From Branchiostoma floridae (Eukaryota; Chordata; Leptocardii; Amphioxiformes; Branchiostomatidae): DNA of 64,000 nucleotides. The notes beneath the pieces are model-generated. The model was not told the origin of the DNA, searched no databases, and saw only the letters and a program-made list of their open reading frames with translations. Below, piece by piece: positions 2,104 through 63,679 of the stretch. The stretch covers positions 4,118,732 through 4,182,731 of the forward strand of contig NC_049981.1 in the NCBI RefSeq assembly GCF_000003815.2. The letters run 5' to 3'. Position numbers and translations under genes: made by a program. Each line of letters begins with the position of its first letter. Within the stretch, counting starts at the first letter, position 1.

Positions 2104-2711
2104 TTATAGATTGTTAGCCGTATAAAAATCTTGCAGAGCTTTTGTCAGGATTCCAAGTTTATCCGCGTAGGTTTTTGCATCCCGAATCATCGCCTTTTCA
2201 TCGCCTGACGCCACTTTCATTACGAAGTCGTGGTAGTACGGAACCGCTTTCATTGCAAGAGAAAAGATACTTTGCACCATCCAACCGTGGTATTTCTTCA
2301 ATGATCTTTCATACGCAGCTTTTGCAACTTTAACCAGGTCAGTCTCACCTTCTGCGATCCCTGCCAAAAAATGTTGAGGGAACTCCAGAGCCCTTCTCAA
2401 CCACAAGAGGGCGTCAGTGGCCGAGTTTTTAGCCTTTGTAGTTTTCTCAGCCATTTCCTGTTTGACGATGTCTTGTAAAGTGGAGAAGCGGTCCGGGTCG
2501 GTGGAGTATTTCTTAGTCAACTTGAGGATGTTTCCGTTTATGTCCGATTTTACAGGTGCAAAAGCCGTTTCTCCGAGAAGATCAAAGAAAGGTACCATGC
2601 GACGGCAGGCATCTAGGAACGGCTTGGTAGGGATGTCACCGTTTCCTGTCAGTTTGACACCTTTAAAACCAGACAGTAACTTCTCAATTTCCGTTTGAAC
2701 ACCGCGAGTTT
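2104..2711 (-). CDS. Gene B terminal exon: complete GLTP domain
   Basis: A 608-nt exon entering in phase 1 after a CTCCCTACAG acceptor and ending in TAA at 2104-2106. About 200 residues, the normal length of a glycolipid transfer protein domain. Conserved features, with human GLTP equivalents: PFFDLLG; the sugar-contact set in SDINGNILK (Asp48, Asn52, Lys55); the stacking Trp96 in LLWLRRALEF; His140 in KKYHGWMVQ. All known glycolipid headgroup ligands are therefore present. The domain has no intron, whereas vertebrate GLTP is split, and an A-rich tract follows the stop. N-terminal boundary chosen from the splice acceptor, not from the Met inside the intron. Confidence 0.88.
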
Positions 2712-5700
2712 CTGTAGGGAGAAAGCAAAGAATACAATGCATTAAACTTTATTACCTTCGCCAGAATGGCAAGGTTATGCTTTGTGTCTTGTGTCTCTAT
2801 ATGTAGGTCAACACCATATAACTAGAGTACCTGTAGCATGGCATTTCTGATATTTCGTATTTAAGTAGCAGTTACAGAGACGAAAGTCCTGTTCGAAAAT
2901 GGTTCACCTGGCACTTTCCTCCGGCACTGGCACGAGAATTGTTCACCTGGGCATTTCCTCCGGCACTTGAAACGAGGCAAGTGTGTGTGGTCTGGTTTGT
3001 TTGCCGGAAAGACAGCATAACTCAAATTTTCNNNNNNNNNNNNNNNNNNNNNNNNNNNNNNNNNNNNNNNNNNNNNNNNNNNNNNNNNNNNNNNNNNNNN
3101 NNNNNNNNNNNNNNNNNNNNNNNNNNNNNNNNNNNNNNNNNNNNNNNNNNNNNNNNNNNNNNNNNNNNNNNNNNNNNNNNNNNNNNNNNNNNNNNNNNNN
3201 NNNNNNNNNNNNNNNNNNNNNNNNNNNNNNNNNNNNNNNNNNNNNNNNNNNNNNNNNNNNNNNNNNNNNNNNNNNNNNNNNNNNNNNNNNNNNNNNNNNN
3301 NNNNNNNNNNNNNNNNNNNNNNNNNNNNNNNNNNNNNNNNNNNNNNNNNNNNNNNNNNNNNNNNNNNNNNNNNNNNNNNNNNNNNNNNNNNNNNNNNNNN
3401 NNNNNNNNNNNNNNNNNNNNNNNNNNNNNNNNNNNNNNNNNNNNNNNNNNNNNNNNNNNNNNNNNNNNNNNNNNNNNNNNNNNNNNNNNNNNNNNNNNNN
3501 NNNNNNNNNNNNNNNNGTGGGGATCGATTAATCTCCTCGCAGCTTTTTTCACCAGGAATAAGACAGTATCATAAGCTGGGGAAGGAGTTTAGCCGGCAGA
3601 GGAGTAAATTGTCCACGCGAAGTTCAATTTACTCCTTTTCCAGCTAAACTCCTTCCCCAGCTTATGATACTGTCTTATGCCACGCAACATCTGCTTGGAG
3701 ATTAGGGATAGGTCCCAAGGGTCTGGAGTCTGGAGCGGCTGCCATTCGGCGCTAGCTTAGATGACCTCAATACTGCAGTATTAGTAGTAAGGCCATGTTG
3801 ATTTGATTATATGGATGACATCCGCGCTCGCACCAATTTTCGGCCGTTTCCAACAAAAAAAAAGTTTTCGACCACACAATAAATTGTGCAAAGCAGCTGT
3901 AAAATGAGCACAAATATTCCGTAAATAGAAAAAAAAGTATCAGAAAACAGATAAGTAAAGCCATAGAATGCCAAAATAAATCTAAAGTCAAAGAATAAGA
4001 TGTGAAAGGACAGAAAGAAAAATTCTATTGTTGGTAGAAGGAGGTACCTGCACAGAAAATTCAGGTATAGGTCCCGTTCAGGTCCAGAGGATCATTTCCA
4101 GGTCCGGACCTGAACCTGGACCTGATTGTCTGTGGAAACTTGAGAACTGGCAATACTCAAAACAATTTTGGTCAATTTTGCCACAAAGAAATCTGTTTGG
4201 TGGATTATTGGACTCCCACTGGCATTTTAAAATCCCATCTCCATGTAATAAAGGCTTACTGTCTCTGTACCTTTGACTGTAGAAACTTGGTACAATTGAC
4301 TATAAACTCTACTTGACTTCACTCTTGTTGTCTTCCTGGCCCCCCGGTAAGACCCCAAATGCCTGCCGACATAGTGTGTCCATTTTGTAATTGGCGAAAC
4401 CTGTTCCTCTAATTTTTTTCCAGGTCTGTTTTTTTCGGATTGGTCCAAGAAGAAAAAAATGTTTTGCAGCCGTAAGATGTACTGGACCCTACACCATACT
4501 ACTGTATGTGTTTTTAGTCCTATGTTCAACCTTCCTGGCCACTTTGATTTCATACTGAAGGCAACTTTTTCTTTTGGCCAAACTTTTTTTTTTATTCGCT
4601 CGCTCGCATCTGTTTTGGAGTTCCCAGAGGATGTCATCCATATAATCAAATCAACATGGCCTAATTGACCCAGGTGCGGCCATGCATAGGACCATGCGTA
4701 GGTTTTGATCCACTCACATGAGGAAGAATCCATACTCTTTTCGATAAGTGTGGTTAGTGTATTAATGCAATAATGTGAAAGATGGAATATTGAATGACAG
4801 AAATAAATTAAATGGAAACGTAAGAATGCTAGTGAATAATTGGTTTCTTGCGTCGAATTTTTTTCCATTCAATATTCGATTTTACAGTTCCTACCACATG
4901 GCCACTGATATGCATTCTACCATTCTACCAGAACGTAAACATGTACCAACCTAACTCAAGCAGTTCCCGTAGACTGCGCAGCTTGTTGTTCAGCATCTCC
5001 AGTTCATCTGCAGTCCGGAACGCAGAGTCGTCATCAGAGAAAGACATGTCATCGGCCCACTGCTCTTCGCGAGTATCTGTAGAAATAAAGAATAAAGGAA
5101 TTTTCTAATAAAGATGAACTGTAATTTCTACTTTTTTGGGAAGTAAGGCTTTATTTAAAATGACTTACACAAATACAGATGAAATTCCAACTTAAGGTCT
5201 CATTGATGAGTTTCTTCTTCCCATAGACTTCTAGGTTATAATTCGTGTTTTACATGGTCGCCTTTATAATGAAGCTACATGAAATGTCAGCATGATTTTT
5301 CATTCTCTGTTGAGAAAATTTACTCTATATAATAGAAAAAATTGCCAATGACTAGAATCAATAGGTTTGTTGTTAATATCAATTACAAGCTACAATGAGT
5401 CAATCCCAGCAAAAGGCACTTTTTCCTTGCTAGCGTACAACCGCACCACTCAGAACCCAGGACTGTGTACCTCCGACCTAGCGCACGGCTATCAAACTTT
5501 ACCTGCTGATTTCTTCAGTTACAAGCAAGCTTTCACCAATCTAACTTTTGATATCAGTTCGGCTGGCCAAAAGCAAATTTCTCACCGCTAAAAACATGCG
5601 TCCATGCAGCCGTTCAGTTTTTGGCTCGGATCTATTTTAGGATACCCACTCACGGAGTAATACATCAATGAGACCTTAACCGGTACCCATCCCTAGTCCC

Positions 5701-8051
5701 AAGTCCTTGCTAGTCCCAACTAATTAAAGCCTGCACGCCTCGGTGAGGCAAGCAGATTTACAAGGACGTGCAGTTAACATGACAGTGTGTGCAGAACAAA
5801 GGGTGTGATATTACCTATGATGTTAGATGAGGCAGAAGCAACCAGAAAATGACCTGTGGATGAAATGTAAGGGCATGTGAGTAGTTACATCATAAACATT
5901 ATTATGTACATCTCTATGTCTATGCTACCTATATGGAATAGTTAGAATACTTTTTGAATGCCGTCTGATATATCTCCATCTCAAATGCACCTCAAAAGTT
6001 TGGAGCATGACCAAAAACATCCGTGACGGCCACAATACACGAATATCTGGAATGCAGTGAGATTTTTATAGAATGCACTAAAATTCCCGAAAATATACAA
6101 AGGTTTTTCATTCAGGTGGCATTCCGGGCACGTTCTGATCTGATCAAGGGGCTTTACAAAGGCAGTAATATCATCAATCATTTCAGTCAATGTTCTAATA
6201 CAAAAATCTGCATTCTGATTACATACTCTTAATTTTGAGCCTAAAGACTAATAGTCAGGGAACAAACAGATACGTTAGCGCAAAAAATGCAAACAAAAAC
6301 TGCAAAATGTTAAGTCCATTAAGACAAGAGTACACTTTGAAGTTCATATTAGATGAAGGTTTGCTCATTTGAAAACGGTAGTCTTTTTGAAGCCAAGAAT
6401 GCACCAGAGTCATTAAAGAAATTAGCATGTAACAAAGCTCTCATGACCGCAGGGTAATGTATTCTGCACTGACACTCGAACAAAGGAGCTGCCACCCCAA
6501 ACTACCTGTCCCAGGGAGGAACAACAACTGAGCGTACGGTAGAAAGGTTACAAAATGGACAGTGAAGAAACTCGGGTTTCCCGGGAGCTGCCCATCGGGT
6601 CATCGAAGTAACGCCGGCGGATCGCTGGTTGGCATCGTTTATGGTTGTGACTAGGGCGGTATCTGATCGCCTTCGCGCCCACAACTTTCGTTCTTGATCA
6701 ATGAAAACATTCTTGGCAAATGCTTTCGCAGTGGTTCGTCTTGCGGCGATCCATGAATTTCACCTCTCCCGCCGCAATACGAATGCCCCCGTCCGTCCCT
6801 CTTGATCATTACCTCACGTTCCGAAAACCAACGAAATAGAACCGAGGTCCTATTCCATTATTCCATGCACCACTATTCAGGCGCCAGGCCTGCTTTGAAC
6901 ACTCTAATTTTTTCAAAGTAAACGCTTCGGCACCGCGAGGCACTCAGTTAAGAGCACCAAGGAGAATCCGGCGGGGAGGGCCGGGACGAGCAGTGACACG
7001 CCTCGCGGCGGACCGCAATTAAGCCCCGGTCCCAAGATGCAACTACATGAACTATGAGCTTTTTAACCGCAACAACTTTGATATACGCTATTGGAGCTGG
7101 AATTACCGCGGCTGCTGGCACCAAACTTGCACTAGATTTGTGACACTTTTATATGTATATATCCTGACTTATTGTGACCTGTACTTAGCTCGGTTGGGCA
7201 AAATTGTACAATAAAGGTCTTCATTCATTCATTCATTAAAACCCCAAACATGACGTAAGTAAGATAGTCGCTGTTTTTGTTATAATTTTGTCATGATGGA
7301 ACTGCGGTCTTGAATGAACAAATAATGTTGCGTGTACTGTCAGAAATATTCCATAAAACAGGTCAACAGACAACAGAGTCCCAATGGCAGACGTACCTCC
7401 GAAGACATTCACCTCACAGTACTGCACGTTGAATACTGTTCGACATTTCTCCAACTTCAATGCAACTCAACAATTTTGAGCATGACAAAAACATTTAAGA
7501 ATGGGCAGAAATATCTAGAACACAGTAAGAAGTGCTAGAATGCACTTTGAATACCCAGCAATGTACAAAAAATAGTCATTCTGACGGCATTCCGGCTGAT
7601 TCCGCTTCTCGTGTGAAGGGCCCTCCATTTCGGAGACTAGTCTAACTACTAAAGAGGGGCTTTTCAAATCCTGTCAAAACCACTTTTGGATTTCAATTTT
7701 GCGCGTTTTTGTTTAGTATCTTATCGTCATAACCACGTTTCTCCCGGTAAGGTATTGCTGTATAAAGTGTCAAGTTCAAATTAGAGACTTCTCCAATCTC
7801 CTAAAGTTTGAACACCACGCCCAAATCCTAGTACTTACTGAGACAGGCCGATGTGACGCGTTACATTTTCTAAAACCACCGATGATCCTTCTCAACATTT
7901 ATATTACTTAGTATATCAATTGATAACTTGGTCCCTTTTTCAGCACAAAGGGAAAAGGGGACAATTTTTATTTTATAACACAACAATAAAAAGGGATGAA
8001 AAACTGCTTACCCAACAGAAGAAGAGTGACAATTTGCAGTCCGCCCACCAT
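2104..8051 (-). CDS. Gene B: predicted secreted GLTP-domain protein
   Basis: Predicted from a leader exon (8012-8051), an acidic exon (4951-5076) and the GLTP exon (2104-2711). The three join in phase 1 and total 774 nt (257 residues plus stop). A 39-nt phase 1-1 candidate micro-exon at 5815-5853 would add 13 residues without breaking the frame. GLTP proteins move glycosphingolipids between membranes and are normally cytosolic, so a signal peptide would be unusual. The weak points are the GTTGGT donor of the acidic exon, which otherwise reads on to a nearby stop, and the 2.9-kb first intron. The gene structure needs transcript support; the GLTP domain itself is secure. Confidence 0.5.
3032..3516. 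other. Assembly gap (485 N)
   Basis: Run of N. In copy 2 the equivalent site is continuous, so the missing DNA lies within sequence inserted into copy 1. Confidence 0.99.
3561..3675. mobile_element. 115-bp palindromic MITE
   Basis: Two arms of about 50 bp separated by a short loop. The outer part (AGACAGTATCATAAGC through GGAGTTTAGC) is a perfect inverted repeat. TA occurs on both sides, as expected for a Tc1/mariner-type insertion. Confidence 0.75.
3791..4661. mobile_element. Harbinger-like MITE, 871 bp, TAA target duplication
   Basis: Perfect terminal inverted repeats of about 33 bp beginning GGCCATGTTGATTTGATT, flanked by TAA at 3788-3790 and 4662-4664. The 3-bp TAA duplication fits PIF/Harbinger elements. 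No transposase visible. The long minus-strand open frame across it (4227-4868) shows no family features. Confidence 0.82.
4951..5076 (-). CDS. Gene B exon: acidic SDDD exon
   Basis: A 126-nt phase 1-1 exon after a TTTCTACAG acceptor. It reads TREEQWADDMSFSDDDSAF, then LEMLNNKLRSLRELLEL. Acidic head and Leu-repeat tail match gene A exon 38. The donor GTTGGT is non-consensus at +3/+4 but correct at +5/+6. If the donor is skipped, translation stops after GWYMFTFW. Confidence 0.62.
5815..5853 (-). CDS. Candidate gene B micro-exon
   Basis: A 39-nt stretch bounded by CACAG and GTAATA on the minus strand, phase 1-1, reading HFLVASASSNII. It would extend the hydrophobic leader. Only symmetry and splice words support it; no paralog was seen. 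Confidence 0.25.
   Translation of the reverse strand, partial: VIFWLLLPHLTS
5981..6240. repeat. Dispersed repeat, GGCATTCC family
   Basis: Similar sequence at 7420-7640 and, inverted, at 36560-36790 and 41270-41370 (shared TTTGAGCATGAC, ATATCTGGAATGCAGTGAG, GGCATTCC). Unclassified. The long frames on both strands here are not coding. Confidence 0.5.
6566..7132 (-). pseudogene. 18S rRNA fragment (partial, antisense)
   Basis: The minus strand reads GTGCCAGCAGCCGCGG, then TAATTCCAGCTCCAATAGCG, continuing through CAAGAACGAAAGTT, GATCAGATACCGCCC and CATAAACGATGCCAAC. This is the central part of the small-subunit rRNA, about 567 bp. Small changes (CTCATAGTTCATG for CTCGTAG, GTGGGCGCGAAGG for the usual GGAGGTTCGAAGA) and the lack of both ends show a dead fragment rather than an rDNA unit. 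Confidence 0.92.
7133..7238 (+). mobile_element. LINE 3' tail with ATTC repeats
   Basis: Ends ...GGTTGGGCAAAATTGTACAA, then TAAAGGTCTTC and (ATTC)n. A short 3'-terminal microsatellite of this kind is typical of CR1/L2-type non-LTR retrotransposons. It directly abuts the 18S fragment. Confidence 0.55.
8012..8051 (-). CDS. Gene B exon 1: signal peptide
   Basis: Minus-strand ATG at 8051 starts MVGGLQIVTLLLLG, with a GTAAGC donor leaving phase 1. Clearly paralogous to gene A exon 1: the surrounding CTCAAGATGG(C/T)GGGCGG and CTTCTTCTGTTGG are shared. A TATA box stands about 50 nt upstream. Confidence 0.62.
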
Positions 8052-8098
8052 CTTGAGCAGTTTCGGAGTGAATGACCATTCAGTTTTGGGTCCTAGTG

Positions 8099-8106
8099 TT
8101 TATAAA
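8099..8106 (-). promoter_or_regulatory. TATA box upstream of gene B exon 1
   Basis: TTTATAAA on the minus strand, about 48 nt upstream of the ATG at 8051. This leaves room for a start site around 25-30 nt downstream and a short 5' UTR. Confidence 0.5.
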
Positions 8107-8109
8107 GTC

Positions 8110-9190
8110 ACCATGGATTGTCTATTAATTGCAAATGCTGTCTGTTGAAGGGAGGGGTACCTCATTAGCATAAAAGATGTGATAATTATGGTGATGACTA
8201 ACTCCCCTCCCGGCAATGTAAAGGGGTAATTTTTACGCCCTCACGGCGTCACCAAATCAGGTACATTCTTAAACTCCCTTTATATCAAAGTATCGCCATT
8301 GTAGCAACATATTTTGATCTCTAAAATAGTTAACTTGCGTCTCGTCTTGTTTGGGCCCCTATAAACTGAACATATAATAGTGGCGCGCACACACAACTTA
8401 CGATTTACTATAAAGGTAGTTGAGACCAAGGTTGAGCAAGGAGTTTTTATCATTGGGTTGAGACACACACAACACGACATAAAATGACAACCGTGTATTT
8501 CTTGCACTTTATTTTGTAAGGCTTTAGAAGAATTGTGACAATGTAAAACTATGGCTTCTTCACGGCGCTGGGTACGAGCGTGTGCGTCTTAAGTGGGGGA
8601 ATCTACTTTCTATGTAATCAAAATAGAGTAGTTTACATGTATATCATGATCAACAGTAAAGTGCACTTCATCTTTTACCATGTTATGCCGGGTATTCATT
8701 TTTGTTTTCAACTTTTGCCATCTGGTCGATTCCAATGGAAACCAGGTTTGTTAGCATGTTACTGCTGGCACCAAGCCCCAGGCGGTGGGCGGGGCTTAAC
8801 TCCGTGTGTGTATGAAATGAGATCCCTTCTTCCACCATCTGCGGTGCTTTGTGTGAAGCAAGGACGTTATACAACGGATAAATATGTGGTAATGTGTTTC
8901 ACGGATAGTCATTATATTATTTCCTTCCTCTCTTACTCTGCATTCTGAAGAAAACGAATTATGGATTATAGATGAAGATTATAGATATCGCCACCTGTTG
9001 AAAATTGAAATTGAAAATGATGTCTTGTCAGGTCAAACTCATAAATATTTTTGTTGAGTTGCGTTTGACACTACATAACCACACAGGCAGGTGCACACAG
9101 GACAGTACCAAACCCTGCCTGCCACATAGAAAATATCTTTGGTGGTGACCTTTTCCCCACCTTTGCAACGTTGAAGATTCAAACTGAAGT
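8110..9190. other. Upstream region of gene B, nothing recognised
   Basis: No exon pattern. Includes a 122-codon plus-strand frame at 8580-8948 with no recognisable features. Confidence 0.4.
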
Positions 9191-9197
9191 CATTTAA

Positions 9198-10145
9198 CCC
9201 TATTCAGACCGGGCTTTTTTGGTCATCCCTGGACCGGGGGGGGGGGGGCTTTTGAGGCCCTCCACTTCTAAGTCCTATAACTCTTGAACGACGTACCGTA
9301 AGGCCACCAAATTTTTAGGACATAATGTCGACGTAATATCTGACAGGTATGTGACGTTTGACGTTACGTTGACGAAAGATGACGTAATTATGACGTCATC
9401 AATTTGATTATATTGGCCAAACCCATGAAAAAAGGGTATTCTCAGAAAACTTCAAGTTATGCTTCAAAAATGTAACAACAAGTGCAGATAACATAATAAT
9501 TATATTTGTTACGCCTTGCGTTGTCAATAGCAACATCAATGACGTCAATATGACGTCATAAAATGACGTCATGCACATCTAAGATACGAGTTGGGCTCCG
9601 CCATATTATATCCACCACCGTGAATTTTTTGAAATACTTTTTTTGCAACAAATAATCACAAAGGGCAATGAGAATAGACTAAATTCATTCATTTAGATGG
9701 TTTTTGATGAAAAAATACCAGGTAGTTACAAATTTTAAGGGAAAATTAGCGTGTTATTCTTGATCTGGCCATTCGGTCCGCCATCTTGGATTTTGGGCTG
9801 ATGACGTCATCAAATTAGCATAATTTATGCATATATAATTATAAAAGATATGCTAAATAATATAACATTTTATTTATGTAATAAAATCGCAGTAATATAG
9901 CAAATAAATGTGAAAAATACATTGTTAGAACCAAAAATAGTGATTTATGGCAAAACTGCCTGTCAACAAACGGTTGCCATGGCAACAAGAAAAAATGGAA
10001 AATTTGTCAAACTTCGTAGAATTGTTGCCAACAATATTTCAGGAAAACTCACCAAATTTGGTGGCTCTAGCGTAAGCCGCTCTGGCGTTATAGGACATCG
10101 AAGTTAGCGCGGGCCTCAAAAGCCCCCCCCCCGGTCTGAATAGGG
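9198..10145. mobile_element. piggyBac-like MITE, 948 bp, TTAA target site
   Basis: TIRs CCCTATTCAGACCGG at the left and CCGGTCTGAATAGGG at the right, flanked by TTAA at 9194-9197 and 10146-10149. TTAA and CCC ends are the piggyBac hallmark. Interior has several TGACGTCAT-type palindromes (about 9397, 9541, 9553, 9565, 9801). No transposase frame. Confidence 0.85.
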
Positions 10146-10180
10146 TTAATTGTGCGTTCAGCACAACTACTCAGTAATAC

Positions 10181-10219
10181 CCAACAGAAGAAGAGCGAGA
10201 AAAGGTGCCCGCCCGCCAT
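10181..10219 (-). pseudogene. Third leader-exon paralog, frame-shifted
   Basis: Minus-strand ATG at 10219 with MAGG start, homologous to gene A exon 1 including the upstream region. It is 4 nt shorter than gene A exon 1, reads HLFSLFFCW instead of the Leu core, and reaches a weak donor (GTATTA) in phase 0 rather than phase 1. It would not join the downstream phase-1 exons in frame. Probably a decayed start, or an alternative untranslated first exon. Confidence 0.5.
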
Positions 10220-10439
10220 TTTGAGCAGGCTCGGAGTAATTATAAATGACCAGTTCTCAACCCCGGTGCCTCAGATGTCGCCTCGGGCTGTTAATTGGAT
10301 AGAAAAGTTGTCTGACCACTTTTTAATCACAGATCATCAAAGATGGCCTCCGCATATTCAATTTTTCTTCATGTCAGCAAACAAGAAACTTCTAGAGCTC
10401 TTTCCCCAGAGACTGAGAATAAGATCAAATAATGTTTGT

Positions 10440-10924
10440 TTGTTTGAACTTTGATTCATTCATGAAAGCTCAAATCGGCCTGCAGGTCGCTTTTCATTGA
10501 AGTCATGAGGGAAGAGGCAAGGGTCAGACAAAGTATATAACAGAGATAAAGTTACATCGTTTTGAGTCCTTATAAGTCCTATACGTCTATATACACAATT
10601 TACATTTACATACATACAAAACACATGATAGAAACTGCTACATGATTCGAGTCCGTTCATTTGGCCGTTCTCATCACTTTAAGAGTCTCTTGAAGGAAGC
10701 CAAAGTTGGGGCTGTGTATATGTCCGGTGGTAGACTGTTCCAGATGGTAGGTCCACGGTAGGCGATGGCTCTTCTGAAGGTTTCTCGGTGGGGTTTGGGG
10801 ACAGCAAGTTGATTGCTTGTGCTTTGCCTGGTTGTTCTTGTGCTTTGGTCTCGGCAATAGACAAACATCTGGCGCATGTAGGGTGGGAGTTTGCTGTTAA
10901 GAGCTTTGTAGACGAGTACACATT
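10440..10924 (-). mobile_element. LINE 3' fragment with reverse transcriptase C-terminus
   Basis: Minus-strand reading LVYKALNSKLPPYMRQMF, later YRGPTIWNSLPPDI and LASFKRLLK followed by a stop. This YRG..WNSLP..I..A.SL..FK pattern is the C-terminal end of CR1/L2/Jockey-type ORF2 proteins. It is 5'-truncated and ends in a 3' UTR with a (CAAA)-like tail. Copy 2 lacks it, so it arrived after the duplication or was lost there. Confidence 0.78.
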
Positions 10925-11333
10925 ATCCACGATCTTCGGGCGTATCGATGGAAGGTCGGCCATATTTAAGACAGAGGTTTGCGCGTATTTTTCACCTGAA
11001 AACCGTCCCTGTCACATATATGCCATACTTTGTACCTTTTACAATTGTTGTGCAATAATTGTATTATTTTAGGCGAGGCTCGGGCGATGCGATTACCGCA
11101 GAATCGTCGTCCGATCGATTTTCGCTATATGTGACGGGCCCGGGGTATTATGACTGCAAGCGCCACAGGTGTCCCACCCCCAACGTTCCAGATCCCTCCC
11201 GACATCTCCGCAGATATCGGAAAAACCTGTGTCTAGATTGGGCCTTAGGCTAAATAGGCTTACGATCGCGAATATCTCAGTCTAAACCAGCAACTAGAAA
11301 TGAAAAACTGATCGGATTTTAAAGTTGAAAATA

Positions 11334-13365: not shown

Positions 13366-13499
13366 TTTTCTCCAACCTTGCAGTAGACGCTCCCTTTATA
13401 GGCAGCATAATTTTGAACATATGGCAGCTGCCTTACCGAAAAAAAAAGAAGAGAGAATACAAATCTCACCTGACCCGGCGTCTACAGGACAAAGGAGAG

Positions 13500-14985
13500 C
13501 CACGGCCACGATAGAACACAACAATGTCAAGACAAATGGAGACGACATCGCACGACAATATCAAGATTTCCGCGAAACTTTTAAAAAGTGAACTCTCCAC
13601 TGTTGATACAGGGACACTGTCTTCTATACTTCTGAAGAATTGTCTAAGATGGCGCAGTCATCTCCTCAGGGGATTCTTACATACGTCAATCACTAGACCC
13701 GCAAACCTGTTTGGTTGGTTGTCTATGTCTATCATTATGCAAGGGTAATTGATTATTTTCACTTCACCATACCGTGGGTACGGTACGTAGTGAAAATAAT
13801 GTTTTCCCCACGTTTCTTCTTCTTCTCTGTCTTCTCCTGTCGCTATCTTTAACACTCAAAAACTCTAGTGGTGTCCATTTGGAACCCAGTCGTATAATTT
13901 GAAGTGCCATAATTTGAACATCTTTTATCGAGAGAAAATATTAATTCCGTGACTTTGTCATACAATATCTGCTATACACTCTCCTAAGTTTTTTTTTGGT
14001 ACAATACTGTGGAAATTATACAGGAAAGTCTATGTTCAGTCCGTTTGGTGTCAAAATGAACCCCAGCAAAATGTGCAATTTTTAAAACAAACTTTTGAGA
14101 CCCACACCTAAACTACATATTGTATGTCCACCAAATTTTTAGAGAATAATTAAGAGCAAATGTCTGTAAGGATCAAACGGTGGTGGCAGGGGTAAAAAAA
14201 ATAGATTTGGCTCATATTTCGACAGTGATAGTACTTGGTCCACAACCCCTCAAAGTAGCTTTCTTTTAGATCAAAACTCCTTGTTGCCATGGTAACGGGC
14301 AAACAAAGGTTTCTGGCCAATTTCCCCAATTTTCGCATCTCAAAAACACAGAAATCAGCATATTTTACGGCACTGTCTCGGCAACACCTTTAAACCTATC
14401 ATCAAAACAAAACAAGATCTGAATAGACCAACATTTTGACTTTTAAAAATTGTTGTGAAATTTCCAAAGTCGTACATTTTAGTTCTTGGGCAGCCTGAAA
14501 ACAGTGCAATGTTTCAAGCTACAAAACAAGTTGATTTTTGGCCCTCCTTTGTAACGCTATAAGTGCCGCTCTGGTACTTTTTTTGGCTTGAAATTTGTAA
14601 CATATATAGATCATTAGAATATCTATCAAATGCATGCTTGCAAAGTTTGGTAACTTGTTTAGTTGTCACGTATGCAAATGTTTTACGATGCTGATGTACA
14701 AATGTATATTCTAGACGAACACGTTCACCGGGTAGCCTAGTCACCGATCAGCCAACCGGCTTATATATCCATGCACATCTTGCAGTTCAACGACAGGCAA
14801 AGTCATTTTCTTTACGCGAGTTGTCTGGGAGGTAATTTGAGATTTGCTACACAAGAGACTGACGTGAGATTGAAAAGGTCACACAAACACACGTCACAAC
14901 TTGACATAAATGGCGTCTTCACCAGACAAATGTTTGTCACCACGACCGACACTTGTTTTGCAGCAACTTTCGATACTGTTTGGGC
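13500..14985. other. Non-coding repeat-like DNA
   Basis: Contains a dispersed repeat (about 13650-13850; also at 24770-24965 and 21550-21745) with CACCATACCGTGGGTA and a CTTCTTCTTC tract. Beyond 14152 there is no copy in the second duplicate. No exon recognised. Confidence 0.5.
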
Positions 14986-19184: not shown

Positions 19185-19203
19185 TTTCACCCAATACGAA
19201 GCA

Positions 19204-19603
19204 ATATCCACGTTGGTTTGATTATATGGATGACATCCAGGCGTGCATTATTTCTCGGTCATTTCCGAAGAAAAAAGGTTTTCAACCATAGTTTAAATCG
19301 TGCAAAGTAGCTTCAAATGAGCCGTGGAATGCACAAAAATATCGGAAAAAAGCTACTGAAGTCATAGAATGCTATTGTCAATTCCAAGGTCAAAGAAGAA
19401 AGATGCGAAAGAATGAAAACGAGAATATATTGTTCGGCACACCATATTATGTGTGTTATATCATTTTTCAGCCTTTGTGACCATCAGCTTCTATTCCTAT
19501 TGAAGGCAATGGGGGGGGGGGGCTTTTCTTTATTTGTACGCTCGTGTCAGTTCGTGTCATCCTCCCAGAGGATGATATCTATATAATCAAATCAACGTAT
19601 CCC
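19204..19603. mobile_element. Diverged Harbinger-like TIR element (copy 2)
   Basis: Duplicate of the element at 1654-2053, carried along in the segmental duplication. Confidence 0.62.
19529..19534 (-). terminator. Poly(A) signal AATAAA downstream of GLTP (copy 2)
   Basis: AATAAA on the minus strand about 120 nt after the gene C stop, conserved with copy 1 and again within the TIR element. Confidence 0.42.
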
Positions 19604-19653
19604 AACGTACTAACATATTTCTAGACTTTTTTTTTGTTTTCTTTTTTGTTTTC

Positions 19654-20261
19654 TTATAGATTGTTAGCCGTATAAAAATCTTGCAGAGCTTTTGTCAGGA
19701 TTCCAAGTTTATCCGCGTAGGTTTTTGCATCCCGAATCATCGCCTTTTCATCGCCTGACGCCACTTTCATTACGAAGTCGTGGTAGTACGGAACCGCTTT
19801 CATTGCAAGAGAAAAGATACTTTGCACCATCCAACCGTGGTATTTCTTCAATGATCTTTCATACGCAGCTTTTGCAACTTTAACCAGGTCAGTCTCACCT
19901 TCTGCGATCCCTGCCAAAAAATGTTGAGGGAACTCCAGAGCCCTTCTCAACCACAAGAGGGCGTCAGTGGCCGAGTTTTTAGCCTTTGTAGTTTTCTCAG
20001 CCATTTCCTGTTTGACGATGTCTTGTAAAGTGGAGAAGCGGTCCGGGTCGGTGGAGTATTTCTTAGTCAACTTGAGGATGTTTCCGTTTATGTCCGATTT
20101 TACAGGTGCAAAAGCCGTTTCTCCGAGAAGATCAAAGAAAGGTACCATGCGACGGCAGGCATCTAGGAACGGCTTGGTAGGGATGTCACCGTTTCCTGTC
20201 AGTTTGACACCTTTAAAACCAGACAGTAACTTCTCAATTTCCGGTTGAACACCGCGAGTTT
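19654..20261 (-). CDS. Gene C terminal exon: GLTP domain (copy 2)
   Basis: Second copy of the 608-nt GLTP exon, nearly identical to copy 1 (one visible change near the start, VQTE to VQPE). Same acceptor, same stop, all ligand residues retained (SDINGNILK, LLWLRRALEF, KKYHGW). No stop or frameshift, so it is either recent or under constraint. Poly(A) signal at 19529-19534. Confidence 0.85.
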
Positions 20262-20678: not shown

Positions 20679-20804
20679 CTAACTCAAGCAGTTCCCGTAG
20701 ACTGCGCAGTTTGTTGTTCAGCATCTCCAGTTCATCTGCAGTCCGGAACGCAGAGTCGTCATCAGAGAGAGCCATGTCATCGGCCCACTGCTCTTCGCGA
20801 GTAT
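20679..20804 (-). CDS. Gene C exon: acidic SDDD exon (copy 2)
   Basis: A 126-nt phase 1-1 exon homologous to 4951-5076. Here the motif reads DDMALSDDDSAF, closer to the ALSDDE words of gene A. Same acceptor and donor. No leader exon was found between here and 27 kb, because the 5.3 kb that carries the leader in copy 1 is missing from copy 2. The transcript is either 5'-truncated or begins in gene A. Confidence 0.6.
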
Positions 20805-24505: not shown

Positions 24506-25289
24506 GCAGTAGACTCTCCCTTTATAGGCAGCATAATTTTGAACATATGGCAGCTGCCTTACCGAAAAAAAGAAGAGAGAATACAAATCTCACCTGACCC
24601 GGCGTCTACAGGACAAAGGAGAGCCACGGCCACGATAGAACACAACAATGTCAAGACAAATGGAGACGACATCGCACGACAATATCAAGATTTCCGCAAA
24701 ACTTTTAAAGTGAACTCTCCACTGTTGATACAGGGACACTGTCTTCTATACTTCTAAAGAATTGTCTAAGATGGCGCAGTCATCTCCTCAGGGGATTCTT
24801 ACATACGTCAATTACTAGACCCGCAAACCTGTTTGGTTAGTTGTCTATGTCTATCATTATGCAAGGGTAATTGATTATTTTCACTTCACCATACCGTGGG
24901 TACGGTACATAGTGAAAATAATTTTTTCGCCACGTTTCTTCTTCTTCTCTGTCTTCTCCTGTCGCTATCTTTAACACTCAAACACTCTAGTGGTGTCCAT
25001 TTGGAACCAAGGCGTATATTTTGAAGTGCCATAATTTGAACATCTTTTATCGAGAGAAAATATTAACTCCGTGACTTTGTCATACAATATCTGCTATACA
25101 CTCTCCTAAGTTTTCCGGAGTTTGGTACAATACTGTGGAAATTATACAGGAAAGTCTGTGTTCAGTCCGTCTGGGGTCAAAATGAACCCCAGCAAAATGT
25201 GCAATTTTTAAAACAAACTTTTGAGACCCACACCTAAACTACATATTGTATGTTCACCAAATTTTTAGAGAATAATTAACAAGTAAATC

Positions 25290-27270: not shown

Positions 27271-27422
27271 CTATTGAGTGGACCTCAGCAGTTCATCTAG
27301 TTTGTGCAGTTTTCTGTTCAGCACCGCCAGTGTACCTTCCTCCTGGAGAACCGATTCGTCATCAGAAACGGCGAGGTCATCTTCCAGCTGTTCTTCCAAA
27401 TCACCTTGCTCTTCCCGAGCTT
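27271..27422 (-). CDS. Gene A exon 38: acidic terminal exon
   Basis: A 152-nt exon entering in phase 1 and ending at a TAG at 27271-27273. It reads [18 protein letters not shown] then SDDES, and ends [16 protein letters not shown]. The second half is Leu-rich and helix/coiled-coil-like. It is homologous to the 126-nt internal exons at 4951-5076 and 20679-20804, but the phase-1 donor used there is missing; the only GT nearby would be in phase 2. It therefore probably ends the reading frame here. I found no canonical AATAAA soon after the stop. Confidence 0.66.
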
Positions 27423-63400: not shown

Positions 63401-63679
63401 TGTTGTTTTGTTTCCTTGTCACTTTTGGCACAGTTTGGACCCACCTGGACCAGGTCAAGGAAACATATTTACTTCAGCGGAACTCAATCAACCGGAACTC
63501 CTCATCTTCCTTTTCAAAAACCAGCGGTTGACAAATGACAATTTCTTTCGCCTTTTCTACTATGCAGTATGTATGTGAGTGAATGAACAACTTGAGCATT
63601 GTTTCCGGCAAACAAATAAATGAGATAACTACTTACCCAACAGAAGAAGAAGAGCGAGAACTAGTAGCCCGCCCGCCAT
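27271..63679 (-). CDS. Gene A: secreted nine-FTP-lectin / six-EGF protein (38 predicted exons)
   Basis: Predicted multi-exon gene. Exon order is signal peptide, nine fucolectin-type (FTP, F-type lectin) domains, six EGF domains, Pro-rich, Cys-rich and acidic C-terminal exons. Adding the 38 exons listed separately gives 5790 nt, an exact multiple of three (1929 residues plus stop). Almost every intron is phase 1, typical of exon-shuffled extracellular proteins; the exceptions are phase-0 introns inside FTP7-9. Approximate residues: FTP1 27-168, FTP2 191-332, FTP3 355-496, FTP4 519-660, FTP5 679-820, FTP6 837-978, FTP7 992-1133, FTP8 1173-1314, FTP9 1354-1495, EGFs 1518-1744. I see no transmembrane segment, so secretion is likely. 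F-type lectins bind fucose in innate recognition; that role here is inference. The exon list is by eye, so extra or alternative exons are possible, and the 8.2-kb first intron is the weakest link. Confidence 0.78.
27770..28800. mobile_element. Diverged fragments of the CAGAAGCTCTGAGG MITE family
   Basis: Blocks at 27778-27895 and 28640-28800 match the element at 46785-47085 (TCAGAAGCTCTGAGGAAGGT, GACACCGAAATGTAAGC, AGAATTCT end). They lie in introns of gene A. Confidence 0.5.
28834..29031 (-). CDS. Gene A exon 37: acidic exon with SDDE motif
   Basis: A 198-nt phase 1-1 exon from [14 protein letters not shown] to [11 protein letters not shown]. Strongly acidic, with a likely helical middle ([11 protein letters not shown]). 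The [10 protein letters not shown] end matches the SDDE/SDDD words of exon 38 and of the acidic exons upstream of both GLTP exons. Its phase-1 donor could join either exon 38 or, in frame, the gene C exon at 20679-20804. Confidence 0.68.
29707..29796 (-). CDS. Gene A exon 36: small Cys-rich exon
   Basis: A 90-nt phase 1-1 exon reading [18 protein letters not shown] then [11 protein letters not shown]. Its three Cys lie within eight residues near the end. Donor GTAAGG. The next exon begins with another Cys (CPVKK), so a compact disulfide knot across the junction is possible. Family not recognised. Confidence 0.6.
30085..30204 (-). CDS. Gene A exon 35: Pro/Ala-rich exon
   Basis: A 120-nt phase 1-1 exon. 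The first 25 residues are Pro/Ala/Lys-rich ([13 protein letters not shown]...), then [17 protein letters not shown]. Acceptor GCCAG, donor GTCAGT. The hydrophobic VIITIGGA stretch runs into the next exon without a break in phase. I do not recognise a family. Confidence 0.6.
30701..30814 (-). CDS. Gene A exon 34: EGF domain 6
   Basis: A 114-nt phase 1-1 exon, [16 protein letters not shown] through GYGGNLCEI. More diverged than EGF2-5, so not part of the recent array. Acceptor TTACAG, donor GTGAGT. Confidence 0.86.
31414..31715. mobile_element. hAT-like MITE with long TIRs (intron, EGF5-EGF6)
   Basis: Arms of about 65 bp starting CATCCTCCTACGCA are inverted repeats with few mismatches. Flanked by CATGTTCA (31406-31413) and CATGTTTA (31716-31723), an 8-bp duplication with one mismatch. 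Confidence 0.8.
31756..31869 (-). CDS. Gene A exon 33: EGF domain 5
   Basis: A 114-nt phase 1-1 exon, [16 protein letters not shown] onward, with all six Cys. Donor GTAAGT. A 302-bp TIR element lies in the intron just downstream (31414-31715). Confidence 0.87.
32080..32193 (-). CDS. Gene A exon 32: EGF domain 4
   Basis: A 114-nt phase 1-1 exon, [16 protein letters not shown] onward, calcium-binding EGF type. Donor GTGAGT. Confidence 0.87.
32375..32488 (-). CDS. Gene A exon 31: EGF domain 3
   Basis: A 114-nt phase 1-1 exon, [16 protein letters not shown] through GFAGNLCET. Near-identical to EGF2, 4 and 5. Part of a local tandem exon array in which the flanking introns are also similar. Confidence 0.87.
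32674..32787 (-). CDS. Gene A exon 30: EGF domain 2
   Basis: A 114-nt phase 1-1 exon starting [16 protein letters not shown]. Six Cys and the D-V-D start with a later aromatic fit a calcium-binding EGF. Donor GTGAGT. Confidence 0.87.
32987..33094 (-). CDS. Gene A exon 29: EGF domain 1
   Basis: A 108-nt phase 1-1 exon, [14 protein letters not shown] through GYAGTKCET, with the six EGF cysteines. It lacks the D-x-D-D start of the following domains, so Ca2+ binding is less likely here. Donor GTGAGT. Confidence 0.85.
33719..33751 (-). CDS. Gene A exon 28: linker L10b
   Basis: A 33-nt phase 1-1 micro-exon reading [10 protein letters not shown]. No third (Cys) linker follows, in keeping with the switch from FTP to EGF domains. 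Confidence 0.52.
   Translation of the reverse strand, partial: VHHWRCRHLK
33874..33943. repeat. (GGTAAA)n hexanucleotide repeat
   Basis: About eleven units with occasional GGTAGA. A shorter block is in the paralogous intron at 41696-41722, so the array grew after the unit was duplicated. The Leu/Pro and Tyr/Leu frames across it are artefacts. Confidence 0.85.
34246..34281 (-). CDS. Gene A exon 27: linker L10a
   Basis: A 36-nt phase 1-1 exon reading [11 protein letters not shown] after FTP9. Confidence 0.58.
34943..35120 (-). CDS. Gene A exon 26: FTP domain 9, second half
   Basis: A 178-nt exon (phase 0 in, 1 out) encoding the C-terminal half of the last lectin domain, ending CEVEVYG. Acceptor CTTCAG, donor GTAGGA. 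Confidence 0.85.
35727..35971 (-). CDS. Gene A exon 25: FTP domain 9, first half
   Basis: A 245-nt exon (phase 1 in, 0 out), [16 protein letters not shown] through GFQ, followed by a GTGGAC donor. Fucose signature broken as in FTP7 and FTP8. Confidence 0.85.
36264..36314 (-). CDS. Gene A exon 24: linker L9c
   Basis: A 51-nt phase 1-1 exon with the same sequence as L8c, ending LGQC, directly before FTP9. Confidence 0.65.
36400..36480 (-). pseudogene. Fossil EGF exon in intron (unit 9)
   Basis: Minus-strand reading [19 protein letters not shown] aligns with the start of the EGF exons ([18 protein letters not shown]). One conserved Cys (PCQN to PSKN) is lost and the second half of the fold is gone. 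No good splice sites. A decayed EGF exon. Confidence 0.6.
37140..37172 (-). CDS. Gene A exon 23: linker L9b
   Basis: A 33-nt phase 1-1 micro-exon reading [10 protein letters not shown], paralogous to L8b. Confidence 0.55.
37580..37615 (-). CDS. Gene A exon 22: linker L9a
   Basis: A 36-nt phase 1-1 exon reading [11 protein letters not shown], paralogous to L8a and L10a. Confidence 0.6.
38309..38486 (-). CDS. Gene A exon 21: FTP domain 8, second half
   Basis: A 178-nt exon (phase 0 in, 1 out). Differs from FTP7b by about one residue (SVKG for SVEG). The intron between the two halves of FTP8 carries an 883-bp TIR element (38659-39541) missing from the FTP7 and FTP9 units. Confidence 0.85.
38659..39541. 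mobile_element. 883-bp TIR element with CCGAACACCAGCCGAC repeats
   Basis: Ends are inverted repeats starting TGCCTAGGTTACACATAGCC. The interior has many CCGAACACCAGCCGAC words, a 21-bp perfect hairpin at 38688-38742, and a second hairpin at 39360-39395. The FTP7 unit has the uninterrupted site near 43107. Target duplication unclear (AT is possible). Confidence 0.75.
40234..40478 (-). CDS. Gene A exon 20: FTP domain 8, first half
   Basis: A 245-nt exon (phase 1 in, 0 out). Almost identical to FTP7a and FTP9a at the protein level, with the same broken fucose signature (RQR, W). The donor is GTTGAC, weaker than in the paralogs. Confidence 0.82.
40771..40821 (-). CDS. Gene A exon 19: linker L8c
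   Basis: A 51-nt phase 1-1 exon reading [16 protein letters not shown], ending in the Cys that precedes FTP8. Near-identical paralog at 36264-36314. Confidence 0.65.
40905..40985 (-). pseudogene. Fossil EGF exon in intron (unit 8)
   Basis: Second copy of the same decayed EGF exon, with the same lost Cys, at the equivalent place in the FTP8 unit. It was therefore already broken before this unit was duplicated. Confidence 0.6.
41550..41582 (-). CDS. Gene A exon 18: linker L8b
   Basis: A 33-nt phase 1-1 micro-exon reading [10 protein letters not shown], with GTAAGT donor. Paralogs at 37140-37172 and 33719-33751. Confidence 0.55.
42015..42050 (-). CDS. Gene A exon 17: linker L8a
   Basis: A 36-nt phase 1-1 exon reading [11 protein letters not shown]. 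Paralogs at 37580-37615 and 34246-34281. Confidence 0.6.
42758..42935 (-). CDS. Gene A exon 16: FTP domain 7, second half
   Basis: A 178-nt exon, phase 0 in and phase 1 out, from [17 protein letters not shown] to CEVEVYG. Acceptor TTCAAG, donor GTAGGT. Together with exon 15 it totals exactly 423 nt, the length of the unsplit FTP exons. Confidence 0.85.
43387..43670. mobile_element. hAT-like MITE with long TIRs (intron next to FTP7a)
   Basis: Arms of about 80 bp starting CATCCTC, same family as 31414-31715 (shared interior CATTAATAT and CTTATGAATATTAATGAGC blocks). Flanked by a perfect 8-bp duplication GTTTTCTT (43379-43386, 43671-43678). Confidence 0.85.
43740..43984 (-). CDS. Gene A exon 15: FTP domain 7, first half
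   Basis: A 245-nt exon, phase 1 in and phase 0 out. It encodes [15 protein letters not shown] through [10 protein letters not shown]. The fucose signature is damaged: RXD is RQR and the final R/K is W. The vicinal Cys pair remains. The intron that splits this domain is absent from FTP1-6. Confidence 0.85.
44525..44566 (-). CDS. Gene A exon 14: linker L7
   Basis: A 42-nt phase 1-1 exon reading [13 protein letters not shown], with the usual terminal Cys, upstream of FTP7. Confidence 0.62.
45030..45076. repeat. CAGTTTAGT simple repeat
   Basis: Imperfect repeat of CAGTT(TAGT) units in the intron downstream of FTP6, beside repeated GTCATTTCGCC words. Confidence 0.6.
45158..45580 (-). CDS. Gene A exon 13: FTP lectin domain 6
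   Basis: A 423-nt phase 1-1 exon starting [16 protein letters not shown]. Fucose signature intact as RKD-CCSN-K, with Lys at the last position, which the family allows. Ends CEVEVIGG. Confidence 0.87.
45838..45888 (-). CDS. Gene A exon 12: linker L6
   Basis: A 51-nt phase 1-1 exon reading [16 protein letters not shown], donor GTGAGT. Its KVEK and PPKLGQC words reappear in the separate linker exons of the FTP7-9 units. Confidence 0.65.
46323..46745 (-). CDS. Gene A exon 11: FTP lectin domain 5
   Basis: A 423-nt phase 1-1 exon starting [16 protein letters not shown]. Fucose signature intact as RKD-CCKY-R. The second half ([17 protein letters not shown]) is intermediate between FTP1-4 and FTP7-9, which places FTP5/6 between the two groups. 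Confidence 0.87.
46785..47085. mobile_element. TIR element, about 300 bp (intron, L5-FTP5 boundary region)
   Basis: Long imperfect inverted repeats: TCTTGTACACAACCAAAATT and TTACTTGCTTACGTTTCG at the left match the right end inverted. Interior shares AGAAGCAGAACTC blocks in both orientations. It lies about 40 bp upstream of the FTP5 acceptor. Confidence 0.75.
47211..47308. repeat. Small foldback
   Basis: AGGGATATCAACTTGACGG and its near-perfect inverse (CCGTCGAGTTGATATCCCT) are separated by about 45 bp. Possibly a MITE; no target duplication identified. Confidence 0.5.
47782..47838 (-). CDS. Gene A exon 10: linker L5
   Basis: A 57-nt phase 1-1 exon reading [18 protein letters not shown], from a GTAACGCAG acceptor to a GTAAGT donor, upstream of FTP5. 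Confidence 0.62.
48121..48543 (-). CDS. Gene A exon 9: FTP lectin domain 4
   Basis: A 423-nt phase 1-1 exon starting [16 protein letters not shown] and ending CEVQVYGG. The fucose signature RED-CCSN-R with upstream His is intact. Slightly more diverged than FTP1-3 ([19 protein letters not shown]). Confidence 0.87.
48899..48967 (-). CDS. Gene A exon 8: linker L4
   Basis: A 69-nt phase 1-1 exon, third copy of the Ala/Ser/Pro spacer ending GSC, just upstream of FTP4. Donor GTAAGT. Confidence 0.7.
49073..49323. mobile_element. Intronic MITE (FTP unit 3-4)
   Basis: Inverted ends ACACAAAAGTACACACG and TATCGCCTTCTTCAGGATCAA type, about 250 bp. Confidence 0.65.
49705..50127 (-). CDS. Gene A exon 7: FTP lectin domain 3
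   Basis: A 423-nt phase 1-1 exon with intact HX26RXDX4R (RED-CCSN-R). The intron between this exon and L3 has gained a roughly 1.1-kb TA-flanked insertion (50631-51712) missing from the equivalent introns of the neighbouring units. Confidence 0.87.
50191..50441. mobile_element. MITE with AAGGTGRTATCTCAC ends (FTP unit 3)
   Basis: Left AAGGTGGTATCTCAC and right GTGAGATATCACCTT, flanked by TTA-like sequence. A duplicated copy lies at 53161-53409. Confidence 0.7.
50631..51712. mobile_element. 1.08-kb TA-flanked insertion between L3 and FTP3
   Basis: Starts ACGGGAGGTGCCCC and ends GGGCGGCCCCCGT, imperfect inverted repeats of about 14 bp, flanked by TA. The paralogous introns read straight through (AAAGGTACATGCAG near 48744 and 53597). 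No transposase visible. Confidence 0.8.
51867..51935 (-). CDS. Gene A exon 6: linker L3
   Basis: A 69-nt phase 1-1 exon, essentially identical to L2, ending GSC before FTP3. Donor GTAAGT. Confidence 0.7.
52040..52292. mobile_element. Intronic MITE (FTP unit 2-3)
   Basis: Paralogous copy of the element at 49073-49323, in the same position relative to the linker exon. Confidence 0.65.
52674..53096 (-). CDS. Gene A exon 5: FTP lectin domain 2
   Basis: A 423-nt phase 1-1 exon starting [15 protein letters not shown]. The fucose signature reads H...RED-CCSE-R, intact. It differs from FTP3 at only a few residues (for example SERL for SNRL, and SAGG for SVGG), consistent with recent tandem duplication together with the flanking introns. 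Confidence 0.87.
53161..53409. mobile_element. MITE with AAGGTGRTATCTCAC ends (FTP unit 2)
   Basis: Paralogous copy of 50191-50441, with GTGAGATATCACTTT at the right end. Confidence 0.7.
53754..53822 (-). CDS. Gene A exon 4: linker L2
   Basis: A 69-nt phase 1-1 exon rich in Ala, Ser, Pro and Lys, ending PPDSGSC. Clean CAG acceptor and GTAAGT donor. Near-identical copies are L3 and L4. Low complexity suggests an extended spacer between lectin domains. Confidence 0.7.
53930..54181. mobile_element. Intronic MITE (FTP unit 1-2)
   Basis: Third copy of the element at 49073-49323. All three sit between a linker exon and the preceding FTP exon. Confidence 0.65.
54561..54983 (-). CDS. Gene A exon 3: FTP lectin domain 1
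   Basis: A 423-nt phase 1-1 exon encoding a complete F-type lectin domain, from [12 protein letters not shown] to CEVQVFG. The fucose-binding signature is intact: the His of CTHT, then 26 residues, then RED-CCSK-R, that is HX26RXDX4R. The vicinal Cys pair that packs against fucose in the eel agglutinin is present. Seven Cys in the domain plus one in the linker make an even number, so the linker Cys probably pairs with the domain. Acceptor TTAAG, donor GTACGT. Closest relatives are FTP2-4. Confidence 0.88.
55435..55470 (-). CDS. Gene A exon 2: short Cys linker (L1)
   Basis: A 36-nt phase 1-1 exon reading [11 protein letters not shown] between a CAG acceptor and a GTAAGT donor. It sits upstream of FTP1 and, like every linker before an FTP domain, ends in a single Cys. 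Confidence 0.6.
55480..56195. other. Gene A intron 1, no exon seen
   Basis: Contains an 18-base C run near 55741 and AT-rich DNA. Several short open frames show no splice-consistent coding pattern. Confidence 0.45.
56199..57008. mobile_element. Second Harbinger-like MITE, cut by the gap
   Basis: Same family as 3791-4661 in the opposite orientation. Starts GGCCATGTTGATTTG after a TAA and runs into the N gap at 57009, with the far end unseen. Internal GATGCGAGCGAGCGAAT and the GGTCCAAAACT block match. Confidence 0.78.
57009..57108. other. Assembly gap (100 N)
   Basis: Exactly 100 N, the usual placeholder for unknown gap size. It removes the far end of the TIR element. Confidence 0.99.
57109..59188. 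other. Gene A intron 1, mixed repeats
   Basis: 57236-57400 resembles 6395-6565 (GCATGTAACAAAGC, CGTAGAAAG), a dispersed repeat. 58075-58300 is GC-rich relative to its surroundings and open in two minus frames, but I do not recognise a product. Confidence 0.4.
59765..60030 (+). mobile_element. Decayed SINE of the same family (unit 1)
   Basis: Shares GTGTTTGCCTTGCATTCG, AAAGAGTATGGAGTTAAACA and GTGTGGCCCAAGGGCTA with the SINE at 12317-12595, but the A and B boxes are lost. Confidence 0.6.
60516..61065. mobile_element. Insertion carrying a tRNA-like Pol III promoter
   Basis: Bounded by GCATTTTGCC at the left and GGCAAAATGC at the right; unit 2 lacks it. At 60649-60705 it has an A box (TGGCGCAGTGG) and a B box (GGTTCGAATCC) with an intact T arm. 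The outer 7-bp strands do not pair, so it is a tRNA-derived element, not a functional tRNA gene. A 12-bp perfect hairpin stands at the left end. Confidence 0.68.
61679..63592. repeat. Tandem duplication in intron 1, unit 2
   Basis: Second unit, lacking the insertion found in unit 1. It ends 45 bp from the gene A leader exon. Confidence 0.85.
62232..62500 (+). mobile_element. Decayed SINE of the same family (unit 2)
   Basis: Second copy of the decayed SINE, inside the tandem duplication of intron 1 of gene A. Confidence 0.58.
63637..63679 (-). CDS. Gene A exon 1: signal peptide
   Basis: ATG on the minus strand at 63679, followed by [15 protein letters not shown], a short hydrophobic secretion leader. 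The exon ends in phase 1 at a strong donor (GTAAGT). The same layout (ATG, Gly-Gly, Leu-rich core, donor after TTGG) recurs at 8012-8051 and 10181-10219, which supports this as a real first exon rather than chance. The next phase-compatible exon found is at 55435-55470, about 8.2 kb away. Confidence 0.75.

Follow-up and report, generated by a model that had tools for sequence, protein, structure and literature searches.

The stretch of the Branchiostoma floridae genome analysed here, 64,000 nucleotides of contig NC_049981.1 (C3:4118732-4182731; hereafter the window), quite probably carries two of three tandem copies of a gene for a small secreted protein with the glycolipid transfer protein (GLTP) fold. 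The prediction of secretion is supported because the three copies, two inside the window and the third just to its left, share a conserved signal-peptide exon, here called L. In every copy L, an acidic exon and a GLTP exon join in phase 1, and copy 3 presents them in the same order and on the same strand as the window copies. The peptide encoded by L, MSSPFVLTLLCSIVAVALLCPVDAGS, is identical at 26 of 26 residues in all three, the two differences that set the L DNA of copy 3 apart from that of copies 1 and 2 both being synonymous. A first-pass annotation of the window had also placed the GLTP domain behind a signal peptide, and L bears this out, but the leader it had chosen, at 8012-8051, and the junctions drawn from that leader are probably wrong; the conserved signal-peptide exon (13470-13548 / 24594-24672) and the second pair of acidic and GLTP exons in the window were overlooked. 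The parts of the two window copies are as follows.

13470..13548, minus strand: exon L, preferred first exon of copy 1, encoding the predicted signal peptide; donor CAG/GTGAGA, phase 1; present in 3 of 3 tandem copies
4951..5076, minus strand: acidic/helical middle exon of copy 1, phase 1-1; DNA identical in copy 3
2104..2711, minus strand: GLTP exon, last exon of copy 1, a single exon to the TAA stop codon, recognised by splice sites, Pfam, PDB match and recognition residues
1979..1984, minus strand: AATAAA polyadenylation-like signal after copy 1 (sequence motif)
24594..24672, minus strand: exon L, first exon of copy 2; DNA identical to L of copy 1 (79/79)
20679..20804, minus strand: acidic/helical exon of copy 2; 3 nt differences from copy 1
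19654..20261, minus strand: GLTP exon of copy 2; 1 nt difference from copy 1
19529..19534, minus strand: AATAAA polyadenylation-like signal after copy 2 (sequence motif)

Identity of the GLTP domain

The GLTP exon of copy 1 is complete and intact (608 nt, acceptor tctccctacag, stop codon TAA) and keeps the headgroup residues, as the first-pass annotation had stated. It belongs to the GLTP superfamily by a profile match that spans the whole domain and exceeds the curated cut-off (Pfam PF08718, E 7.3e-50, 169.5 bits against a cut-off of 25.6, profile positions 1-146 of 147). The best PDB match is the GLTP domain of FAPP2/PLEKHA8 (5kdi, 3.4e-41, 70/159 identical); GLTP structures match at best with 4.4e-36 (71/149 identical), and CPTP is far weaker (best 2.6e-7).

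Recognition residues named for GLTP are Asp48, Asn52, Lys55, Trp96 and His140, along with Tyr207 and Val209 (PMC2262070; here and below, papers are cited for excerpts of their text). At the five aligned positions, D48, N52, K55, W96 and H140, the window protein is identical to GLTP (5/5), which gives it a recognition centre of the glycolipid type; the comparison covers the aligned stretch, beyond which Tyr207 and Val209 lie. An arginine in place of Trp96 is what we take to be the mark of CPTP and the ceramide-1-phosphate (C1P)-specific group. By eye, CPTP and a CPTP-like gene on C14 have this arginine (RLHR) where GLTP and the window protein have tryptophan (LLWLRR), so that the window protein is not of the C1P type at this position. 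The product of the exon would presumably adopt the two-layer, all-helical GLTP fold.

An A-rich run lies downstream of the GLTP stop codon. A 76-bp tandem repeat is found 3' of both window copies, with 5 units in one (1256-1640) and 13 in the other (18189-19191).

The predicted signal-peptide exon

Exon L was found by a scan upstream of copy 2 (21370-27260), in which one of 12 phase-1 first-exon candidates, 24672-24594, scored as a signal peptide. The donor of L measures 7.2 bits. All signal scores are from the 1986 weight matrix, whose columns sum to 161 as expected and whose customary cut-off is 3.5; on this scale L reaches 7.77 with cleavage after residue 19 and 6.86 with cleavage after residue 24 (VDA/GS). 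The latter site was picked by the -3,-1 rule, the matrix ranking residue 19 slightly higher. The L model is thereby predicted to have the N-terminal signal peptide and cleavage site of a secreted protein. Two N-termini taken as cytosolic controls score -3.1 (a CPTP-like protein from C14) and -3.5 (human GLTP), and the joined start of the neighbouring F5/8C-EGF gene, described below, scores 11.5.

A scan of both window strands for phase-1 open ATG exons of up to 150 nt returned 8 candidates with a donor of at least 6; signal scores of at least 6 were reached by two of these, which are the two copies of L. Under looser limits (donor 1.5, signal 3.5), 6 of 114 candidates pass. Between L and the acidic exon, internal exons passing the thresholds are absent from copy 2 and amount in copy 1 to the 39-nt candidate 5815-5853. 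The DNA directly upstream of L has an additional copy at 21545-21740 (81-82% identical), with no open leader exon seen adjoining it.

Tandem copies

Comparison of the window with itself resolves tandem duplication blocks at 93.6-99.2% identity:

4-2929 (copy 1) and 16938-20479 (copy 2)
4818-5641 (copy 1) and 20546-21369 (copy 2)
10919-14153 (copy 1) and 22447-25279 (copy 2)

Two parts of copy 1 have no counterpart in copy 2: one, 2930-4817, contains an assembly gap, and the other is 5642-10918. Copies 1 and 2 differ by 0.2-7% depending on the segment, and their near-identity fits recent duplication, gene conversion or an assembly effect alike. They diverge by 0.2-0.4% across the GLTP exon and the DNA 3' of it, and by 2.5-7% in the introns (1-2711 compared with 16935-20261), a step that looks as if it were the end of a gene-conversion tract.

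The assembly from which the window comes comprises 431 contigs and 513,431,437 bases. Searched for the GLTP domain, it gives eight matches: the two window copies, copy 3 on C3, a pair on C14, and partial matches on C11 (two) and C18 (one). The acidic exon of copy 3 is identical in DNA to that of copy 1. The GLTP exon of copy 3 differs from that of copy 1 at 39 nt, which changes 22 residues and the stop codon and leaves the three recognition-residue motifs in place; the nonsynonymous and synonymous rates (Ka and Ks) are 0.052 and 0.106. With its usual stop codon lost, the copy 3 frame extends by six residues, DSKKKV, to the next stop. A haplotype artefact accounting for all the copies is rejected because of these 39 differences; for copies 1 and 2 alone such an artefact is conceivable. 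A fourth, dispersed partial copy is present on C16 (C16:12732000-12741999, positions 8026-9433), where the acidic exon and both ends of the GLTP exon are found and the middle is missing; no L exon was found in the 20 kb examined near it.

The acidic exon and the predicted protein

The middle exon (4951-5076), which the first-pass annotation had correctly described as acidic and in matching phase, comprises 42 codons for an acidic stretch and an amphipathic helix. The helix spans the junction between the acidic and GLTP exons (moment 0.40, p 0.015). After cleavage at residue 24 the L-model protein would have 246 residues and an isoelectric point of 5.8; its front would be acidic (-9) and its GLTP part basic (+6).

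The acidic exon has a homologue at the presumed end of a large neighbouring gene that encodes F5/8 type C (F5/8C) and EGF domains, of which two exons matter here:

27271..27422, minus strand: putative final exon of the F5/8C-EGF gene, closed by a stop codon; homologue of the GLTP gene's acidic exon
63637..63679, minus strand: putative leader exon of the F5/8C-EGF gene, phase 1; homologue of 8012-8051

The match between the acidic exon and 27422-27271 is ungapped over 37 residues (E 2.9e-7 and 5.9e-8; shuffle z ~11), while another acidic exon of the F5/8C-EGF gene shows only a weak likeness (z 2.5 and 3.9). This homologue counts in favour of secretion because F5/8C and EGF domains are normally extracellular. 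The helix across the junction and the kinship to the F5/8C-EGF tail suggest, and do no more than suggest, that the two proteins could associate.

Alternative gene models

The leader chosen by the first-pass annotation lies downstream of L, within a segment that is confined to copy 1:

8012..8051, minus strand: leader exon MVGGLQIVTLLLLG, homologous to the leader 63637-63679; found in copy 1 only
8099..8104, minus strand: TATAAA upstream of 8012-8051, with the A of a TCATT motif 31 nt further downstream
5815..5853, minus strand: 39-nt candidate exon GHFLVASASSNII, which would complete the 8012-8051 leader; found in copy 1 only
5642..10918, no strand: segment found in copy 1 alone, within the intron that separates L from the acidic exon; contains F5/8C-EGF relics and a fragment of 18S rRNA

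That copy 1 should start at 8051, with 8012-8051 as main or alternative leader and the acidic exon following it either at once or after 5815-5853, is in our view unlikely. The exon itself exists as described, open, in phase 1 and with a donor and a TATA box (TATAAA, 8104-8099). Scoring of the joined N-terminus, which had been proposed as a check, gave a split answer. Joined directly to the acidic exon (8012/5076), the leader offers a hydrophobic stretch with no usable cleavage site (best score -0.73), so that a signal peptide appears only once 5815-5853 is added; the score then rises to 8.67 after MVGGLQIVTLLLLGHFLVASA, at an ASA site. In favour of the micro-exon, it is the sole candidate to pass in the intron of copy 1, and 4 of 300 shuffles (1.3%) score as high. 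At least one passing exon occurs in 35 of 300 shuffles (11.7%), with splice thresholds that were taken from the candidate itself, and many other exons of the window would complete the signal equally (at least 3.5 in 12 of 19 open minus-strand exons, 5815-5853 included, and in 7 of 14 open plus-strand ones). The support for 5815-5853 is weak.

The distribution of the leader speaks against it as well. Neither 8012-8051 nor 5815-5853 has a protein match at E <0.5 in the 21.5-kb copy 3 stretch (3,093 Ns included), and both flanks of the missing segment align between the introns of copy 3 and copy 1, lying ~20 bases apart in copy 3 (window-frame -8518/-8496 = 5310/10919). The exon is homologous to the F5/8C-EGF leader (77.5% over 80 columns), the relic covering 8002-8078, and it lies beside two other relics of that gene: a second decayed leader with upstream (promoter) DNA at 10178-10393, and a 33-base F5/8C end at 7387-7419 (91%). 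Homologous to the leader of that gene and placed next to these relics, it most plausibly belongs to a decayed 5' region of the F5/8C-EGF gene; since TATA, start and donor are kept, copy 1 could conceivably also use it as an alternative promoter. Probably, then, 8012-8051 is a relic or an alternative promoter. As the main leader it is rejected: it is present in one of three copies, among F5/8C-EGF relics, and yields no signal peptide without 5815-5853. The copy-1-only segment also contains a partial 18S rRNA at 6526-7269 on the minus strand (Rfam SSU_rRNA_eukarya, 353 bits), within the intron of the GLTP gene.

A cytosolic GLTP would result if the 5' exon were non-coding and translation began at a methionine of the acidic exon or of the following intron, L being unrelated or part of another product. 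We consider this improbable. An in-frame methionine does occur in the acidic exon (signal score -5.6), and GLTP, FAPP2 and CPTP are described as cytosolic (PMC8953657); the intronic methionine before the GLTP exon scores 3.06, just below 3.5 and hence not cleanly cytosolic either. Against this model, the acidic exon's homologue at 27422-27271 is coding and, like the acidic exon, is entered in phase 1, and the L protein is conserved in three copies. Nor does it seem at all likely that the copies are decaying, retro-derived pseudogenes. The intronless GLTP exon followed by an A-rich stretch, the loss of the usual stop codon in copy 3, and a C16 copy without much of the domain would all agree with decay, and the intronless GLTPi of primates is a silent pseudogene (PMC2262070). 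Against decay stand three open frames with intact recognition motifs, changes in L that are synonymous only, a Ka/Ks of 0.49 in the GLTP exon, intact splice sites (copies 1 and 3) and a downstream AATAAA (copies 1 and 2).

The preferred reading, a secreted GLTP-fold protein that begins with L, has weaknesses of its own. Its signal-peptide call depends on a 1986 matrix rather than on a modern predictor, and every exon junction of the gene model is predicted from sequence. The Ka/Ks of 0.49 would indicate modest constraint, and the absence of any L substitution from copy 1 to copy 2 is only mildly surprising (P ~0.09). The L-model protein contains zero N-glycosylation sequons. The leader on C13 that resembles L, discussed below, scores 3.21, under the customary 3.5, and its joining to trypsin exons is itself conjectural.

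Proposed origin of the gene and possible function

What could be the source of the three parts of the gene? The gene looks chimeric: L is similar to a leader that precedes trypsin exons on another contig, the acidic exon to the final exon of the F5/8C-EGF gene, and the intronless GLTP exon to a multi-exon FAPP (PH+GLTP) gene. A genome search with L DNA lists, besides the three GLTP copies, a single further place (84%) on C13, where two Pfam Trypsin exons follow 3.5-6 kb downstream on the same strand. The closest GLTP region among those found is on C18, with five separate matches at 49-71% identity per piece and, upstream of them, a PH exon of the FAPP type (PDB PLEKHA3 PH, 1e-18; Pfam PH). Elsewhere, the identity per piece is 23-55% on C11, where a split GLTP-domain gene is taken to be the GLTP orthologue, and 26-31% on C14, which has two CPTP-like genes, one of them with a non-hydrophobic putative N-terminus. 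The GLTP exon probably arose by retroposition of a FAPP-type message. Between the CPTP-like genes of C14 lies a 435-aa open frame that by eye is reverse transcriptase-like (C14:11833500-11843499, 3617-4921, minus strand).

The gene would thus have been assembled from a secretory 5' end with its signal exon, a tail exon of the F5/8C-EGF type and a retroposed GLTP segment of the FAPP type. In the mechanism that we propose, L would supply a cleavable signal peptide, and the protein would enter the endoplasmic reticulum, lose the leader and leave the cell. The 42-codon exon would add its acidic stretch and amphipathic helix, and the one uninterrupted exon the glycolipid-type GLTP domain. Outside the cell this domain may, by homology, bind a glycosphingolipid headgroup in its Asp/Asn/Lys/Trp/His centre and shield the chains, in which case the protein might act as a soluble extracellular glycolipid carrier or sensor. 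A bolder proposal, to which we give little credence, is that capture of a retroposed FAPP-type GLTP by a secretory 5' end and a shared tail exon founded an extracellular glycolipid-binding family whose tail pairs with the F5/8C-EGF protein, the two recognising the sugar and the lipid of the same glycolipid.

To our knowledge, extracellular carriers for glycosphingolipids are poorly known. If the reading is true, a glycolipid-type GLTP with a conserved signal peptide would place the fold outside the cell, and exon shuffling together with an apparent retrocopy would be a concrete route by which this came about. Since one genome offers three tandem copies together with a split relative of the FAPP type, both origin and secretion can be tested directly.

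Relation to known GLTP-fold proteins

FAPP2/PLEKHA8 and the C18 gene share the glycolipid-type GLTP domain with the window gene and are the closest of the matches found. FAPP differs in its N-terminal PH domain, and the GLTP region of the C18 gene is split with a PH exon upstream, whereas the window gene has an intronless GLTP exon, a predicted signal peptide and no PH domain in its model. A FAPP-like joining of PH to GLTP was not found: on the 270-aa spliced model with the 8012-8051 leader, Pfam reports only GLTP above the cut-off. Elsewhere in the window no PH domain appears in the 10 of 55 open reading frames scanned by Pfam, a scan that would miss short exons. GLTP has D48, N52, K55, W96 and H140 in common with the window protein; it differs in being described as cytosolic (PMC8953657) and in the five exons of the vertebrate gene (PMC2262070). 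CPTP is likewise a member of the superfamily, and both groups of the superfamily are described as cytosolic (PMC8953657).

The view of the first-pass annotation that a signal peptide would be a new context for the fold overstates the case, and its example of such a context, the binding of host or microbial glycolipids, is conjectural. GLTPD2, like the window protein, belongs to the GLTP superfamily and is linked to the secretory pathway. Mouse Gltpd2 is listed in a table that admits only proteins having a transmembrane domain plus a signal peptide or membrane anchor (PMC3652815), and human serum proteomics studies report GLTPD2 (PMC8789809, PMC11750704). Vertebrate GLTPD2 may thus serve, by analogy and in part, as a precedent for a secretory GLTP-superfamily protein; the likeness is one of description, and no GLTPD2 is among the PDB matches. 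Accounts of its ligand differ, a putative ceramide-1-phosphate role (PMC8004487) being set against glycolipid transfer (PMC8989972). GLTP is placed among cytoplasmic proteins in a fungal proteome paper (PMC2944164) and among candidate excretion/secretion proteins of a tapeworm (PMC3686625), the term 'signal peptide' being absent from the text of the latter. The phrase secreted or extracellular glycolipid transfer protein was not found in a literature search that left subscription papers mostly outside. In viral contigs there were 20 pattern matches, none of them a relative.

The neighbouring F5/8C-EGF gene

A tRNA scan of the window returned none. The large gene at 63679-27271 on the minus strand comprises, by tblastn, nine F5/8 type C units (six in single exons, three split) and six EGF exons. 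The leader 63637-63679 would belong to this gene by phase and position across 8.6 kb. The phase would permit the copy 2 exons of the GLTP gene to form an alternative 3' end of the F5/8C-EGF gene (the exon that ends near 28834 does so in phase 1); this arrangement is disfavoured, copy 2 having its own L. Pfam confirms 4 of the 5 F5/8C pieces sent and the one EGF exon sent (1/1), and several of the F5/8C exons are near-identical tandem copies.

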